Below, in pieces: positions 23,107 through 51,027 of a stretch of 64,000 nt of DNA. Location of the stretch: NCBI RefSeq assembly GCF_026343115.1, contig NZ_JAPEMC010000003.1:124001-188000 (forward strand), given 5' to 3'. The position numbers and the translations under genes are program-made. The stretch comes from Streptomyces sp. NBC_00102 (GTDB lineage: Bacteria; Actinomycetota; Actinomycetes; Streptomycetales; Streptomycetaceae). Position 1 is the first letter of the stretch. Each line of letters starts with the position of its first letter. The notes below the pieces were generated by a model, which worked only from the letters and a program-made list of their open reading frames with translations, did not search any database and was not told the origin of the DNA.

Positions 23107-24756
23107 TCACGTCCGCTCCTCCGCGGGTGCCCGCAGGCGCAGTTCCGTACCCGGCCAACGGGACCTGAGCCACCGGTCGTGGCTGGCGACCACGACGGTC
23201 CCCGGACCGGTGCCGAGTGCCTCCTCCAACTCGTCGGCGAGCCGTGGCGAGAGGTGGTTGGTCGGTTCGTCGAGCAGCAGCAGGTCCGGCGGGTCGGCGA
23301 CGAGCAGGGCGAGGGCGAGCCTGCGGCGCTGACCGGCCGACAGTTCACCGACTCTGCTGTCGAGATCCCGTGCGGCGAAGAGCCCGAGCCCGGCGAGCGG
23401 GACGAGTTCGGCCCGTTCCTCGCCGAGCCCGAGGGTGTACGTCTCCGCGACGGTACGCCCCGGATGCTCGAACACCGTGTCCTGGGCGAGCAGTCCGGCC
23501 CGAAGCCCCTCCCGGCGACGCACCCGGCCGGTGGGAGCGGTCAGTCCGCCCGCCAGCACCGCGAGGAGCGTCGACTTGCCCGCGCCGTTCGGGCCGGTCA
23601 CCAGCAGGCGGTGGCCCGAGTGGAGGTCCAGGCGGTCGAGGGTGAGGCGGCCGGGCACCCGGAGGTCCCGGAGGGAGAGCAGCGGGGCGTCGTCGGCGGA
23701 GTTCGCGGGCTCGGCGGCTTCCGGTTCAGGGGTGCGGAAGCGCAGGGGCTCCGGCGGGGCGGGGACCCGCTGCCGCTCCAGTTCGCCGAGCCGGCGGGCG
23801 GCGTTGCGCACCCGGCGGGCGATCTGGTGCTGGACCCGGCCCCCGGCGTGGCCGTACCCCATCTTCTCGTTGTCGCGCGGCCCACGGTCCGGGGCGACCC
23901 GGTGGGCCGTGACCTCCACCGCGACGCGCAGGTCGGCGAGTTCTTTCTCCTCCTCCTCGAAGCGCCGCTGCCAGCTCTCCCGGGCGGCCCGCCGCTGGTC
24001 CTGGTAGGCGGTGTAGCCGCCGCCGTAGTGGACCGGCCCGCGCACCGCGGGGTCGAGGTCGATCAGGTCGGTGCAGACGGCGTCGAGGAACGCCCGGTCG
24101 TGGCCCGCCACCACGACGGCACCGGGCATCTCGCACAGCCGCCGTTCCAGGAACGCGGCGGCCTCGTCGTCCAGGTGGTTGGTGGGTTCGTCGAGGAGGA
24201 GCGCGGTGGGCCGGCGGATCAGCAGCGCAGCAAGGGCGAGCCGCCCCCGCTGTCCGCCCGAGAGGGTGCCGAGGGTGCGGCCGTGGGCCAGGGCGCCGAG
24301 GCCGAGGCCGTCGAGGACGAGCCCGGCGCGCCGGTCGGCGTCCCAGGCCTCGTGCTCCTCGGCCTGCTGCAGGCACTCCGCGTACCGGGCGAGGAGGTCG
24401 CCGTGGCCGGGCGTGTCCTCGGGCACGGCGGCGATCTCCCGGGAGAGTAGGTCGAGCCGGGCAAGGTCCGCGCGGGACTCGGCGAGGGCGTCGTCGAGCA
24501 CGTCGGTGATGCTCGCTCCGCTCTCGTACGGCATCTCCTGGTGGAGGTAGCCGAGTCCGGCAGGGCGGACGACGGTGCCGGAATCGGGCTCGTCCACCCC
24601 GGCGAGGATTCTCAGCAGGGTGGACTTTCCGGCACCGTTCTCGCCGATCAGGCCGATGCGGCGGCCGGGGGCGGCGGTGAGGGAGACGCCGTCGAGCACC
24701 CGGCGCCTCCCGAGGGTACGGACGAGGTCGTGGGCGAGCAGGGCGGGTCGGGTCAT
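23107..24756 (-). CDS. ABC-F family ATPase (first of three)
   Basis: A 549-residue soluble protein with two ABC ATPase domains and no membrane segments. Domain 1 has Walker A GENGAGKST, signature LSGGQRGRLAL and Walker B ALLLDEPTNHLD; the charged linker (about 240-320) follows; domain 2 has GPNGAGKST, LSAGQRRRLAL and LLLLDEPTNHLS. ABC-F proteins bind the ribosomal E site; subsets protect against macrolides, lincosamides, streptogramins or pleuromutilins, and others are housekeeping factors. Which type this is cannot be told from sequence alone. It lies 132 bp downstream of another ABC-F gene in the same orientation, and no clear leader ORF precedes it. Confidence 0.92.
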   Translation of the reverse strand: MTRPALLAHDLVRTLGRRRVLDGVSLTAAPGRRIGLIGENGAGKSTLLRILAGVDEPDSGTVVRPAGLGYLHQEMPYESGASITDVLDDALAESRADLARLDLLSREIAAVPEDTPGHGDLLARYAECLQQAEEHEAWDADRRAGLVLDGLGLGALAHGRTLGTLSGGQRGRLALAALLIRRPTALLLDEPTNHLDDEAAAFLERRLCEMPGAVVVAGHDRAFLDAVCTDLIDLDPAVRGPVHYGGGYTAYQDQRRAARESWQRRFEEEEKELADLRVAVEVTAHRVAPDRGPRDNEKMGYGHAGGRVQHQIARRVRNAARRLGELERQRVPAPPEPLRFRTPEPEAAEPANSADDAPLLSLRDLRVPGRLTLDRLDLHSGHRLLVTGPNGAGKSTLLAVLAGGLTAPTGRVRRREGLRAGLLAQDTVFEHPGRTVAETYTLGLGEERAELVPLAGLGLFAARDLDSRVGELSAGQRRRLALALLVADPPDLLLLDEPTNHLSPRLADELEEALGTGPGTVVVASHDRWLRSRWPGTELRLRAPAEERT

Positions 24757-24888: not shown

Positions 24889-26532
24889 TCAGTCGCCGCC
24901 GGGTGCGCCCGCCTCCGTCAGCCGTCCGTCGGTCAGGTGGAGCCGCCGGTCGACCCCGATCTCCGCGAGGAAGCGCTCGTCGTGGCTGACGACCACGAAG
25001 GCTCCCTGGTAGGCGTTGAGCGCGCTCTCCAACTGGCCGACGCTGACCAGGTCGAGGTTGTTGGTCGGTTCGTCCAGCAGCAGGAGTTGCGGGGCGGGTT
25101 CGGCGTAGAGGACGCAGGCGAGGGTGGCACGCAGCCGCTCACCGCCGGAGAGCGCCGACACCGGAAGGTGCGCGTGCGAGCCCCGGAAGAGGAAGCGCGC
25201 CAGCAGGTTCATCCGCTCCGCCTCCGGCAGGGCGGGCGCGAACGCGGCGAAGTTCTCGGCGACGGTACGTGCGGAGTCGAGCAGATCGAGACGCTGGGAG
25301 AGGTACGCGATGCGGCCGTCCGCCCGCCGGAGGGTCCCGCCGTCCGGCACCTGCTCACCCTGGACGATCCGCAAGAGGGTGGACTTTCCTGCCCCGTTGG
25401 GGCCGGTGAGCGCGATCCGCTCGGGGCCGCGGATCTCCAGGTGCGCCCCGTCCCCGGCGAACAGCTCTCGGTCACCGCGGCGGACCCGGACGCCCTCGCC
25501 GAGGAAGACGGTCCGTCCCGCGGGGACGCGGGTCTCGGGCAGTTCCAGGGTGATCCGCTGGTCGTCGCGGAGTGCGCGGCCCGCCTCGTCGAGCCGGGCC
25601 CGGGCGTCCCCGACACGGGCCGCGTGCGTACCGTCCGCCTTGGCCGCCGACACCTGGGCGCTGCGCTTGAGTCCGCCCGCGACGATCTTGGGCAGTCCGG
25701 CGTTCTTGATGGTGCGGGCGGCGTTGTTCGAGCGGCGCTGGGCGCGTTCGCGGGCCTGCTGCATCTCCCGCTTCTCCCGCTTCACTTCCTGCTCGGCGCT
25801 GCGGACGTTCTTCTCGGCGACCTCCTGCTCGCCGCGCACCATCTCTTCGTATTCGGTGAAGTTGCCTCCGTAGAAGCGGAATTCACCGCGGTCGAGTTCG
25901 GCGATGCGGTCCATCCGGTCGAGCAGTTCCCGGTCGTGGCTGACCAGGAGCAGGCAGCCGTTCCACTCCTCGATCACGGTGTAGAGCTTCTTGCGCGCTT
26001 CGAGGTCGAGGTTGTTGCTCGGTTCGTCGAGGAGGAGCACGTCGGGGCGCTTCAGGAGCTGCGCCGCGATCCCGAGGGAGACGATCCGCCCGCCGCTGAG
26101 GGTGTCCAGAGACTGTGTCAGCGTGACGTCTTCGAGGCCGACGCGGTCGAGCTGGGCCCGGGTGCGTTCCTCGATGTCCCAGTCGTCGCCGATCACGGCG
26201 AAGAGTTCCTCGCTGGTGTCGCCGGATTCGATGGCGTCGAGCGCCCGGATCACCTGGGAGACGCCGAGCACCTCGGCCACGGTGAGACCACCGGTGAGCG
26301 GCAGGTCCTGCGGGAGGTGGCCGAGCAGTCCGTTCACGGAGACGGAGCCCCGGGTGGGGCGGTACTCACCGGTGATCAGCTTGAGCAGGGTGCTCTTGCC
26401 CGCGCCGTTGGGTGCGACGAGTCCGGTGCGGCCGGCGCCGACGGTGAAAGAGAGGTCCTGGAAGACGGGTGTGCCGTCGGGCCAGGAGAAGGAGAGGTGG
26501 GAGCAGGTGAGAAAGGCCATGGAAACGGACAT
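24889..26532 (-). CDS. ABC-F family ATPase (second of three)
   Basis: A 547-residue twin-ATPase protein. Domain 1 has Walker A APNGAGKST, signature LSGGRIVSLG and Walker B VLLLDEPSNNLD; a long basic interdomain linker (about 240-330, KREKREMQQARERAQRRS) follows; domain 2 has GPNGAGKST, LSGGERLRATL and LLLLDEPTNNLD. The NNLD form and the long linker recall the actinobacterial antibiotic-resistance-like ABC-F group, but function is inferred. ATG 26532 has AGGA seven bases upstream; ATG 26520 and an in-frame GTG at 26670 are alternatives. It is preceded by a structured leader with short ORFs (see 26667-26752). Confidence 0.92.
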   Translation of the reverse strand: MSVSMAFLTCSHLSFSWPDGTPVFQDLSFTVGAGRTGLVAPNGAGKSTLLKLITGEYRPTRGSVSVNGLLGHLPQDLPLTGGLTVAEVLGVSQVIRALDAIESGDTSEELFAVIGDDWDIEERTRAQLDRVGLEDVTLTQSLDTLSGGRIVSLGIAAQLLKRPDVLLLDEPSNNLDLEARKKLYTVIEEWNGCLLLVSHDRELLDRMDRIAELDRGEFRFYGGNFTEYEEMVRGEQEVAEKNVRSAEQEVKREKREMQQARERAQRRSNNAARTIKNAGLPKIVAGGLKRSAQVSAAKADGTHAARVGDARARLDEAGRALRDDQRITLELPETRVPAGRTVFLGEGVRVRRGDRELFAGDGAHLEIRGPERIALTGPNGAGKSTLLRIVQGEQVPDGGTLRRADGRIAYLSQRLDLLDSARTVAENFAAFAPALPEAERMNLLARFLFRGSHAHLPVSALSGGERLRATLACVLYAEPAPQLLLLDEPTNNLDLVSVGQLESALNAYQGAFVVVSHDERFLAEIGVDRRLHLTDGRLTEAGAPGGD

Positions 26533-26666
26533 GGAGACGTCCTGGTGACGTGATGCGGGCGCGCGTCGAAGCGGCCGCCCGGAGGCGAACAGAGGTGGGG
26601 TACGACAACGGAAGCCATCACAGCGGCGCTTGAACGCGCCTGCCGGTGGCAGATCACCTTCGGGTG

Positions 26667-26696
26667 TCACCCGGAGATGTCGTCGTCACCCTTCAC
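26667..26696 (-). CDS. Candidate leader peptide of the second ABC-F gene
   Basis: On the minus strand AAGGAG (26709-26704) sits seven bases before GTG 26696, opening a nine-codon ORF (MKGDDDISG, then TGA ending 26667). Its stop overlaps another GTG (26670) whose frame is open into the ABC-F gene, and the stop lies inside a short inverted repeat (CGGGT-GAC-ACCCG). This is the arrangement expected of translational attenuation or coupling, but the ORF is tiny and could be chance. Confidence 0.35.
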   Translation of the reverse strand: MKGDDDISG

Positions 26697-48503: not shown

Positions 48504-50279
48504 CTATGTCCCTGCCGTCGCCCGGGAAGCCTCGGCGGGACGTCCCTCGCGCAGTTCCAGCACGTCCCCGGCGAACCGGCCGCGGAAAGCCCGGTCGTGG
48601 GAGACCACGACGACCGCCCCCTCGTACACGGCGAGCGCGGCCTCCAGCTCCTCGACCAGGTCGAGGGCGACGTGGTTGGTCGGTTCGTCCAGGACGAGTA
48701 CGTCGGCGGGGCGGGTCACCAGCCGGGCGAGGGCGAGTCTGCGCTGCTGACCGACGGAGAGGTCACGGACCGCCACACCGAAGTCCTCGGCACGGAACAG
48801 TCCGAGGGCGAGCAGGTCCCCGGCGTACTCCTCGGGTGCGCCCGGCCGGCCGGCCGCGTAGGTGGCGAGGAGCGAGCGGCGGGTCAGCCTGGCCGGCAGC
48901 TCCTGCGGGAGATAGCCGACGCGGCCGCGCCGGACGACCGTCCCGGAGTCGGGGGCGAGGTCGCCCGCGAGAACCCTGAGCAGGGTGGTCTTGCCCGCGC
49001 CGTTCGGGCCGGCGACCAGGAGCCGCTGCCCGGGGAACACGTCGAGCGCGGGCAGGCGCAGACGCTCGCCCACCGAGACGGAATCCAGCGCGAGCAGGGG
49101 CGCCGGGGTGCCGGCAGCGTCCGGGGTGCTCGTCGCATCCGGGGCGCCCGTCGTGGCGGTCGCGTCCGGGGTGCCGTCCGCGCGGGTCCTGTCCGGGGTG
49201 CCATCCGCGCCGATCGCGTCCGTCACGCCGGTCGTCCCGGTCGCGAGGGTGAGCCCCGCCGTGAAGCGCAGGGGCTCCGGCGGCGGAGGCACGGGGGCGG
49301 CGAGCAGCGCGTCCCGGCGCGTCCGCGCGGCCTTGACCCGGCCGGAGAGTTTGGTGTCGTGCGAGCGGCGGTGCTTGCCGAAGCCCTCCCCCGGGTCCTT
49401 GCCGGTGGACCGGAGCCGACGGCCGGCGGCTTCCACCAGCTCTTCGGTACGGGCGAGTTCGGTGAGCCACTCCTGGTGCTCCTGCGCCCATCGGCGCCGC
49501 GCCGCGGTCTTCGCCGTCCGGTAGCCCTCCCAGCCGTCGCCGTGGCGGGTGACGGAGCGGCGGTCGCGGTCCACCTCCAGGATGACCGTGGTGGTGGCCT
49601 CCAGGAACGCGCGGTCGTGGGTGACCACCACGAGGGTGCCCCGGTGGGCGCGCAGGTGGTCCTCCAGCCAGCGCACGGCGGGCACATCGAGATGGTTGGT
49701 CGGCTCGTCGAGCAGGAGCGACTCCGGTGCGGCGGCCAGCACGCAGGCGAGGGCCAGCCGGGACTGTTCGCCGCCGGAGAGGGTGGCCAGGGGACGGTCG
49801 CGGGTCAGGTGCGCGAGTCCGAGACCGTGCAGCGCCGCGTCGGTGCGGGCATCGGCCTCGTATCCGCCACGATCCTGATAGGTCGTCAGCAGCTCACCGT
49901 AGGCGTCGAGTTCGATCGCCTCGGGAGCGGGGCCGGACAGCCGGGCCTCGGCCTCGCGCATCCGGTGTTCCAGGTCGCGGAGTTCGGCGAGGGCGGTGTC
50001 GACGGCGTCCTGGACGGTGTGGTGCGGAGCGAGCGCGAGGGTTTGGGCGAGGTGGCCGACGCCGTCGGGAAACCGGGTGACGACCTCTCCGGCGTCCGGG
50101 GCCTCGGCACCGGACATGAGCCGGAGCAAGGTCGATTTGCCGGAGCCGTTCTCGCCGATGACGGCGACGTGTTCGCCGGGCCGGACGGTGAGGGAGACGC
50201 CCGCCAGGACGGTCCTGTCGCCGTAGGCCAGCGTGACGTCCTGGAGGGTGATCTGAGAGCGGTCGCGCGATGCGGACAT
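48504..50279 (-). CDS. ABC-F family ATPase (third of three)
   Basis: A 591-residue twin-ATPase protein. Domain 1 has Walker A GENGSGKST, signature LSGGEQSRLAL and Walker B SLLLDEPTNHLD; the interdomain linker is followed by a Thr/Ala/Gly/Asp-rich repeat (about 350-395); domain 2 has GPNGAGKTT, LSVGQQRRLAL and VLVLDEPTNHVA. Like other ABC-F proteins it should act on the ribosome, possibly against a bound antibiotic. ATG 50279 starts the conserved MSASRDRSQITLQDV. About 170 bases upstream lies a candidate leader peptide (50426-50452) and promoter, suggesting inducible attenuation. Confidence 0.93.
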   Translation of the reverse strand: MSASRDRSQITLQDVTLAYGDRTVLAGVSLTVRPGEHVAVIGENGSGKSTLLRLMSGAEAPDAGEVVTRFPDGVGHLAQTLALAPHHTVQDAVDTALAELRDLEHRMREAEARLSGPAPEAIELDAYGELLTTYQDRGGYEADARTDAALHGLGLAHLTRDRPLATLSGGEQSRLALACVLAAAPESLLLDEPTNHLDVPAVRWLEDHLRAHRGTLVVVTHDRAFLEATTTVILEVDRDRRSVTRHGDGWEGYRTAKTAARRRWAQEHQEWLTELARTEELVEAAGRRLRSTGKDPGEGFGKHRRSHDTKLSGRVKAARTRRDALLAAPVPPPPEPLRFTAGLTLATGTTGVTDAIGADGTPDRTRADGTPDATATTGAPDATSTPDAAGTPAPLLALDSVSVGERLRLPALDVFPGQRLLVAGPNGAGKTTLLRVLAGDLAPDSGTVVRRGRVGYLPQELPARLTRRSLLATYAAGRPGAPEEYAGDLLALGLFRAEDFGVAVRDLSVGQQRRLALARLVTRPADVLVLDEPTNHVALDLVEELEAALAVYEGAVVVVSHDRAFRGRFAGDVLELREGRPAEASRATAGT

Positions 50280-50425
50280 GGGTGTGGTTCCTGCTGCTTT
50301 CGCTGAGGGAGGGCCCGGGTGCGCGGCGTCGAGGACGGGCGCGCGGCAGGCGTGATTTCCGGTCGGCGGCGGGTACCGGGACAGCGCGCTCGGCGCGGGG
50401 CTGCGACGGTCCTCGCCGGAGCGGA

Positions 50426-50452
50426 TCAGCGGAAGTAGTAGTACGAACCCAT
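50426..50452 (-). CDS. Candidate leader peptide (8 residues) of the third ABC-F gene
   Basis: On the minus strand ATG 50452 encodes MGSYYYFR followed by TGA (ending 50426). It starts six bases after a good minus-10 (TACACT, 50464-50459), so the mRNA would be leaderless with this peptide first. Its Tyr-rich run and position 146 bases before the ABC-F start fit known antibiotic- or amino-acid-sensing leader peptides. Too small to prove by sequence alone. Confidence 0.55.
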   Translation of the reverse strand: MGSYYYFR

Positions 50453-50458
50453 GGTGCG

Positions 50459-50464
50459 AGTGTA
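50459..50464 (-). promoter_or_regulatory. Minus-10 of the ABC-F leader transcript
   Basis: TACACT on the minus strand, six bases before the leader-peptide ATG. A weak minus-35 (GAGACG) is about 17 bases further upstream. Confidence 0.5.
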
Positions 50465-50512
50465 GAGGAACGGACGGACGGGCGTCTCCGGGGATACGGC
50501 GTCCTGCCGCGT

Positions 50513-50842
50513 TCAGTCGCGCTCCGGGGCCGTGGCCGGCAGCCGGATGACGGCCCGGCCACCGTCCAGGTCGACGGTCGAACGGTGCGGCGGGGCGCCG
50601 TCCTCCTCGTCGTCGCGCAGCAGCAAAGCGCAGGCGCGTTCCTTGAGTTCGCTCTGTTTGCCGGGCGAGAAGGTGGCGTGCAGCTGCTCGAACCCGGTCG
50701 CGGAGACCTGGCCCTGCCGGGCGCCGTTGCGCCAGGGCAGCACGCCGGCGCGGGAGAAGCGCAGCATCAGCTGGTCGGCGAAGGCGAGCACGGTCAGACC
50801 GACCACGAGGGTGGGGAGCGTGAGCAGCGCGGCGAATCCCAT
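50513..50842 (-). CDS. DUF6191-like membrane protein
   Basis: A 109-residue protein with one N-terminal membrane segment (FAALLTLPTLVVGLTVLAFA, residues 3-22), then FSRAGVLPWRNGARQGQVSATGFEQLHATFSPGKQSELKER, a layout matching the DUF6191 family of Streptomyces. The tail after about residue 80 is polar. Function unknown. It is 61 bp upstream of the leader-peptide region of the ABC-F gene and on the same strand, but the promoter at 50464 lies between them. Confidence 0.78.
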   Translation of the reverse strand: MGFAALLTLPTLVVGLTVLAFADQLMLRFSRAGVLPWRNGARQGQVSATGFEQLHATFSPGKQSELKERACALLLRDDEEDGAPPHRSTVDLDGGRAVIRLPATAPERD

Positions 50843-50929
50843 GGCGACAGTATGGCCGCGGGTGCGGACGGGCCGCCCCTGCCGGGTCGGTCCCGACGCG
50901 GACCGGACACCGGCGCCCTCCGGACATGC

Positions 50930-50967
50930 CGACGCGGGCCGTCGCCGTGGTTCGGCGGCCCGCGTCG
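50930..50967 (-). terminator. 12-bp hairpin downstream of the adh operon
   Basis: Arms 50930-50941 and 50956-50967 pair perfectly. It is the second of two hairpins that follow the alcohol dehydrogenase gene. Confidence 0.65.
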
Positions 50968-51027
50968 GGTGGTTCCGTGCTCGTACGGGCCGTGGAGAAC
51001 ACGCGCCGTGTACGAGCCGCGAAGAGA

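Follow-up and report, generated by a model that had tools for sequence, protein, structure and literature searches.

In the genome of Streptomyces sp. NBC_00102, a 64,000-nucleotide (nt) stretch (contig NZ_JAPEMC010000003.1, positions 124,001 to 188,000 of the forward strand; hereafter the window, in whose coordinates positions are given) carries a short open reading frame (ORF), encoding the peptide MGSYYYFR, upstream of a gene for an ABC-F ATPase. Judging from its conservation, its complementarity to the Shine-Dalgarno (SD) region of that gene and computed folding, this element is most likely a leaderless, drug-sensing translational attenuator of the ABC-F gene, and the peptide family to which it belongs probably senses ribosome-blocking antibiotics and switches on the resistance-type ABC-F gene. 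If this is true, the switch consists of a single RNA helix, and the codons that act as sensor are also those that repress the SD.

All parts of the locus lie on the minus strand, and the layout described by the earlier note on this DNA was borne out. The -10 element TACACT (50459..50464) is followed by the six bases CGCACC (50458-50453) and by the leader ORF (50426..50452, with the ATG at 50452-50450), whose codons are ATG GGT TCG TAC TAC TAC TTC CGC TGA and which, by its sequence and conservation, is of the leaderless type. A structured leader-RNA spacer of 146 nt (50280..50425) separates the ORF from the ABC-F gene (48504..50279, with the ATG at 50279), which encodes 591 amino acids and was assigned from its ORF, a profile match and a phylogenetic tree. 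AGGA at 50289..50292, 9 nt 5' of that ATG, is the likely SD core of the gene. In Streptomyces lividans TK24, TAnnnT is found at 88.7% of promoters and lies 5-7 nt from the start in 88.7% (PMC8079986; here and below, published work is cited for the passages at hand). From the spacing of TACACT, transcription is predicted to start at or next to the leader ATG. A sigma-70-type promoter scan, whose rule requires a -35 element, found none at this locus, and Rfam families gave 0 matches in the window at gathering score. The ORF and spacer together fold with z = -2.70 relative to 200 shuffles, one of which folds equally well or better.

The leader ORF is conserved among orthologues of the ABC-F gene beyond chance expectation. 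Homology searches for orthologues gave 30 loci in a set of 61 genomes and 58 in named genomes, and an ORF was recognised when it had 5-11 codons, stood 5-8 nt after a -10-like hexamer, and ended in an aromatic residue, Phe, one of Leu, Arg, Val or Ser, and a stop. All 55 homology-found loci that reach 500 bits, among them the window and amounting to 53 distinct leaders, have such an ORF, and dinucleotide shuffling of their leaders produced it in 0 of 5500 cases; the conservation of the short ORF by which the earlier note had proposed to judge its own reading was thus found. Among rows at 150-500 bits it is present in two of 21 (L067 and L075, both 63% identical) and absent from the other 19. 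The RNA was studied in 77 distinct leaders, 55 of them homology-found and 22 found only through the ORF pattern described below; the pattern-found loci served for specificity and RNA statistics and were excluded from the 55-of-55 count, and the two figures of 55 cover different sets and are equal by chance. Folding, codon and location counts all refer to these 77 leaders, in which a 45-nt limit was applied to the choice of gene start.

In the 77 leaders the -10 element is TANNNT in 76 cases and CACACT in one, and lies 6 nt (40 leaders) or 7 nt (37) before a start codon that is ATG in 72 and GTG in five. The 43 different peptides, of 6-10 residues, include MGSYYFFL, MRSYYYFR, MFAHYYFL, MRHYFFL, MAFLFFV, MTFYFFL, MGSFHFFL, MGSYKYYFFL, MGTYAYYFFR, and MHLFFL. 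Residue -2 is Phe in 77/77, which was demanded by the recognition rule, yet all 55 homology-found loci of at least 500 bits passed that rule. Residue -1 is Leu in 45, Arg in 16, Val in 15, and Ser in one, and residues -3 to -5 are mainly Tyr, Phe, His or Leu, with Trp, Cys, Ser, and Pro being rare. Variants with internal residue insertions preserve both ends (MGSYYFFL, MGSYKYYFFL, MGSYSYYYFR), which was counted as support for translation. An exact search with the peptide MG..YYYFR among 150 genomes of the genus had matched only the genome of the window itself; this apparent non-conservation was overturned by reading the leaders of the orthologues. Since these keep the C-terminal end, the conserved part is the 3' end of the ORF and not the Tyr run, which the earlier note had put forward as a plausible stalling sequence or a sensor of Tyr codons. 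The closest other leader found among 392 genomes (L121 in genome G359, 83% identical) encodes MGSSYCFR and has lost the Tyr run, but retains Phe-Arg-TGA and the SD-side strand CAGCGAAAG. As read by eye, its Tyr6-to-Cys change gives one extra pair in the ORF-SD helix discussed below.

The ORF also points specifically to this gene. A DNA pattern built solely from the -10 element, the ATG and the sequence for the aromatic end, and thus blind to the neighbouring gene, gave 52 matches in 246 Streptomyces genomes (that of the window included), and the reversed pattern, used as control, gave 0. All 52 matches adjoin this ABC-F gene, as established for 30 loci that were examined, 14 more that were fetched, and eight by their position beside ABC-F hits of the homology search; the first 30 all lie 101-254 nt upstream of the gene and in its orientation, and so do the 14. 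When 296 genomes were drawn from the whole class, the six matches were all in the genus of the window (6/28, against 0/268 for the others), five of them at this ABC-F gene and one, in genome G369, elsewhere.

The second line of evidence is a helix between the ORF itself and the SD region. In the computed fold of the window leader, the 3' end of the ORF, CUUCCGCUGA (50426..50435; last codons and stop), which would be the anti-SD strand of the switch, pairs with the complementary UCAGCGAAAG (50297..50306), just upstream of AGGA; nine of the ten pairs have probabilities of 0.80-1.00 and one position is a C-A mismatch. The commonest strands across the family are CUUUCUCUGA with UCAGGGAAAG or CCAGGGAAAG. 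The earlier note had proposed a different stem, between GAGGAC and GTCCTC; both sequences are present, but the stem was rejected, as its pairing probability is 0.0 at all six pairs and G359 has GTCCAC with GAGGAC unchanged. Its broader suggestion, that a short peptide controls a resistance-type ABC-F gene, fits the conserved ORF of leaderless type and an RNA pairing of the kind expected for ribosome-mediated attenuation.

Over the 77 leaders, the mean computed probability of pairing between the SD region and the ORF is 0.66, compared with 0.33 when the ORF is shuffled, and the native value is higher in 69. Holding the ORF and 9 nt single-stranded to mimic a ribosome lowers the mean computed SD pairing from 0.74 to 0.46; the decrease exceeds 0.1 in 65/77. 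In a scan of the whole leader, the best complement of the ORF tail is found at the SD of the chosen start in 57/77, and on its own SD the native tail equals or exceeds the commonest tail in strength in 38/42 CTC, 3/3 CTG, and 1/1 TCC leaders. The observed sum of duplex energies was never reached when tails were permuted among leaders (0/5000 with the 77 leaders, repeated on 69 distinct types), a count that is not a probability since related leaders are not independent. Changes on the two strands compensate each other: CUG-UGA occurs with UCACAGG (L007, L058), UCC-UGA with UCAGGAGAAG (L075), and CGC-UGA with CAGCG or GGCG (window, L070, L096). Furthermore, the penultimate Phe codon is the rare TTT in 37/77 leaders, compared with 3/108 other Phe codons of the ORFs and 20/617 in the ABC-F genes (31/55, 2/73, and 15/484, respectively, for homology-found leaders only), and the third U of this codon faces an A of AAAG. 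Complementarity, compensating changes and TTT bias together point to selection on the nucleotides as well as on the peptide. Pyrimidine-rich Phe and Leu codons pair somewhat with any purine-rich SD; the swap test counts against that being the whole story, although it too draws on related, non-independent sequences.

The switch may operate as follows. Transcription would begin at or beside the leader ATG. Without drug, the ribosome would translate the 6-10-codon peptide, terminate and leave, after which the freed last codons and stop of the ORF are predicted by complementarity and computed folding to base-pair around the SD of the ABC-F mRNA, keeping the gene off. An exit-tunnel drug, most likely a macrolide, may hold the ribosome near the C-terminal end consisting of an aromatic residue, Phe, Leu, Arg or Val, and the stop; the stalled ribosome would then cover the 3' end of the ORF, leaving the SD free, and the ABC-F protein would be made. 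This protein may afterwards remove the stalled ribosome, thereby turning off its own synthesis, by analogy with what is reported for MsrD. A macrolide appears to be the likeliest signal because ARE4 proteins are listed for macrolide resistance (CarA, SrmB, TlrC, and OleB confer resistance to 14-, 15-, and 16-membered macrolides; PMC6723617) and because the leaders MsrDL and tlrB, which are short and have a C-terminal arrest, answer to macrolides (PMC10314930, PMC6851288). If the scheme holds, the 43 peptide variants in 77 distinct leaders are a natural library for learning which C-terminal sequences allow a drug to hold the ribosome near the stop codon.

Besides the limit on the permutation count, several results weigh against this scheme. 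The drug class is taken from relatives. Tails ending in Val (GUC) are at least as strong as the commonest tail on their own SD in only 3/15 leaders, with a mean of -6.7 kcal/mol, and those ending in Arg (CGC) are mixed (8/16). The best complement of the ORF tail lies outside the SD in 20/77 leaders, and the native tail beats the mean foreign tail in 55/77 but the MGSL tail, described below, in only 43/77. In the window itself, the SD is only modestly freed on blocking the ORF (0.48 to 0.36). When the 35 shortest leaders were aligned with MAFFT, RNAalifold gave eight pairs, none of them from the ORF-SD helix; MAFFT perhaps sets some variable SDs out of register, and energy swaps and single-sequence folding were used instead, but the miss remains a negative result. 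Of the conserved YYYFR-like leader with covarying hairpins for which the earlier note had proposed a test, the aromatic-Phe-X-stop end and the compensating ORF-SD changes are there, whereas the Tyr run is not conserved and the helix escaped RNAalifold.

The strongest rival, which we consider unlikely, is transcription attenuation: a ribosome stalled on the leader would keep transcription from ending early, whether by intrinsic or by Rho-dependent termination, and the ORF-SD pairing would be secondary or additional. In the Val-ending group, where the ORF-SD pairing is weak, a different mechanism may have a place. Several studied ARE-ABCF leaders, namely those of msrD, vmlR, lmrC, and are5sc, work at least partly in this way (PMC10314930, PMC8546547, PMC12421871, PMC10201436), and the 84-254 nt between leader ATG and gene, together with the structured leader of the window, would be in keeping with it. 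Against the msrD/vmlR type stands the finding that a consensus scan of the window, with Rho outside its reach, gave no intrinsic terminator or terminator-like site in 50200-51000. Likewise, conservation in the 35 shortest leaders is concentrated in columns at the ORF end, directly behind the stop and in the SD region, and they include no T-run ahead of the gene.

A drug-independent coupling, in which the SD helix is held open whenever the ORF is translated and the ORF sets a basal level while sensing nothing, would be compatible with both the ORF-SD pairing and the conserved ORF. It is improbable, since the ORF is conserved in what it encodes (residue -2, for which the recognition rule demanded Phe, is Phe in 77/77, and all 55 homology-found loci of at least 500 bits passed that rule), and since the resistance-type ABC-F genes that have been studied are drug-induced (PMC10314930, PMC8546547, PMC12421871, PMC10201436). 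Least of all do we expect an amino-acid attenuator, in which a Tyr/Phe-rich ORF senses charged tRNA-Tyr or tRNA-Phe: the aromatic runs do resemble amino-acid leader peptides, 7/8 of which are called leaderless in S. lividans TK24 (PMC8079986), but the downstream gene encodes an ABC-F ATPase and not a biosynthetic enzyme, Tyr and Phe interchange and are mixed with His and Leu, and the MGSL relatives have no aromatic residue.

The translational attenuator would control a relative of known ribosome-protection proteins. The ABC-F protein of the window scored 664.5 bits with the NCBIfam model ABCF_producer (NF000171, the TlrC/CarA/OleB/SrmB family), below the curated cut-off of 800, and is therefore a relative of the TlrC, CarA, OleB, and SrmB ribosome-protection proteins and not a member by that test. 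The orthologues L007 (732.6) and L036 (704.4) also remain below 800 bits, and the relatives L018 (900.5) and L020 (1010.4) pass. The 57 rows that carry the aromatic-ended leader ORF form one clade, with a support of 100/98, in a tree of 76 proteins. Among the 120 closest proteins listed, those inspected that carry an organism name come from Streptomyces, as do the named genomes in which close orthologues lie. A comparison with solved structures gave no close match for this protein, and none for the phosphotransferase of G369 discussed below. Two more ORFs that read as ABC-F-type proteins lie in tandem on the minus strand of the window (23107-24756 and 24889-26670), approximately 24 kb from the ABC-F gene studied here.

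Related leaders are found before genes of the TlrC/CarA type. L018 (900.5 bits with ABCF_producer) and L020 (1177.8 bits with CarA), both above the curated cut-offs, have a leaderless ORF that encodes MGSL. The corresponding pattern matched in 25/295 Streptomyces genomes, with 0 for the control, and all 25 loci (L130-L154) lie on the same strand, 128-245 nt upstream of a gene whose product is 61-100% identical to that of L020 over the best segment. The end of the four-codon ORF, MGSL-TGA, is complementary to the SD region of its ABC-F gene, with a duplex energy of -13.5 kcal/mol over the 25 loci compared with -11.0 when the SD is shuffled, and in 24/24 cases the SD favours the MGSL tail of its own leader over the FFL tail (L144 was left out, as its start is not set). 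A search of a plasmid collection with a CarA-like protein query gave 73 records. The leader does not extend to the TlrC/CarA group as a whole: MGSL was found in three of the five tree rows of the clade (L018, L020, L022), while the 330-420 nt examined in L021 and L023 contain no leaderless ORF, and neither do the next groups (L015-L017, L019, L066, L069).

The single class-wide match away from an ABC-F gene of this kind (L158 in G369, contig 17, 284000-288300) encodes MTYLFFV and directly precedes a gene of the phosphotransferase family, with a post-stop sequence resembling that of its relatives. The downstream protein itself has no Pfam or NCBIfam match; database entries for its relatives bear the name phosphotransferase or aminoglycoside phosphotransferase family. 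G369 lacks an ABC-F protein of the leader-bearing clade, the best hit being 50% identical. The SD region of the gene, AGACGAAG, complements the ORF tail without mismatch over 8 bp (pairing probabilities 0.99-1.0), and the duplex has -13.9 kcal/mol compared with -3.8 to -9.0 for six other phosphotransferase genes. This is a single case, and its GUC tail belongs to the group that pairs poorly before ABC-F genes. In 5/21 loci with a homologue of this gene (246 genomes, E <= 1e-50), the phosphotransferase-family gene lies downstream of the ABC-F gene in the same orientation. At L173, L174, L175, L178, and L183 the two genes adjoin on one strand, as if they formed an operon under the leader.

A wider proposal, to which we give an even chance, is that Streptomyces macrolide-type ABC-F genes, those for TlrC/CarA self-resistance included, are controlled by leaderless sensor peptides of 4-10 codons (with the aromatic-Phe end in one clade and MGSL in another) that have their own last codons and stop as the anti-SD, that peptide, codon choice and SD co-evolve, and that a leader can pass to a new gene with a matching SD, as in G369. 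If true, this would account for the induction by drug of an intrinsic ABC-F gene that is common in Streptomyces and, perhaps, of the classical ABC-F genes for macrolide self-resistance.

Control of resistance ABC-F genes by leader peptides is well known, as is the placing of leader codons in an SD-hiding hairpin. The latter is found in the tlrB/yxjB leader of Bacillus subtilis (MIIQFIRYR; PMC6851288), where, as proposed here, leader codons lie inside the hairpin that sequesters the SD, and a stalled ribosome frees it. The tlrB leader is macrolide-specific (tylosin), whereas macrolide sensing is an inference here, and it differs in having a methyltransferase target, an ORF with its own SD, an RYR motif, and a terminator with an RNA polymerase pause (PMC6851288); the present leader has an ORF of leaderless type, an aromatic C-terminus and, by the consensus scan, no terminator. 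MsrDL (MYLIFM) of the mefA/msrD operon is likewise a very short hydrophobic/aromatic peptide before a macrolide-type ABC-F gene and arrests at the stop codon, but it acts by transcription attenuation with an intrinsic terminator and has its own ribosome-binding site and a UAA stop, and the passages cited do not describe an ORF-SD pairing (PMC10314930). The ARE5 leaders of Streptomyces (lmrC, are5sc, tiaA) share ribosome-mediated attenuation of an ABC-F resistance gene; however, their peptides, such as MLV and MVGDDDISG, come from upstream ORFs (uORFs) with ribosome-binding sites, terminator and anti-terminator forms are proposed for them, and their inducers are lincosamide, streptogramin A, and pleuromutilin drugs (PMC8546547, PMC12421871). 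The CplR leader of Clostridioides difficile shares uORF control of an ABC-F gene and an SD-hiding hairpin, but its uORF has three codons (MRI) and a terminator hairpin, not the ORF itself, hides the SD (PMC10201436).

The peptides were not found described in the literature searched, which was covered mostly by titles and the beginnings of abstracts with subscription journals largely outside, and the query with the literal peptide was swamped by the word "leaderless" and gave no clean negative. The program uORF4u looks for an SD in front of candidate prokaryotic uORFs (PMC10219788), and this requirement may be the reason why leaderless ORFs were passed over; if the reading is true, the leader is a minimal one-helix drug switch that SD-reliant uORF searches would tend to miss. 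Compared with the systems above, what appears to be new, as far as the literature search shows, is the ORF of leaderless type, the family of peptides ending in an aromatic residue, Phe, Leu, Arg or Val and the stop, the one-helix design, and the link to relatives of macrolide-type ABC-F proteins.
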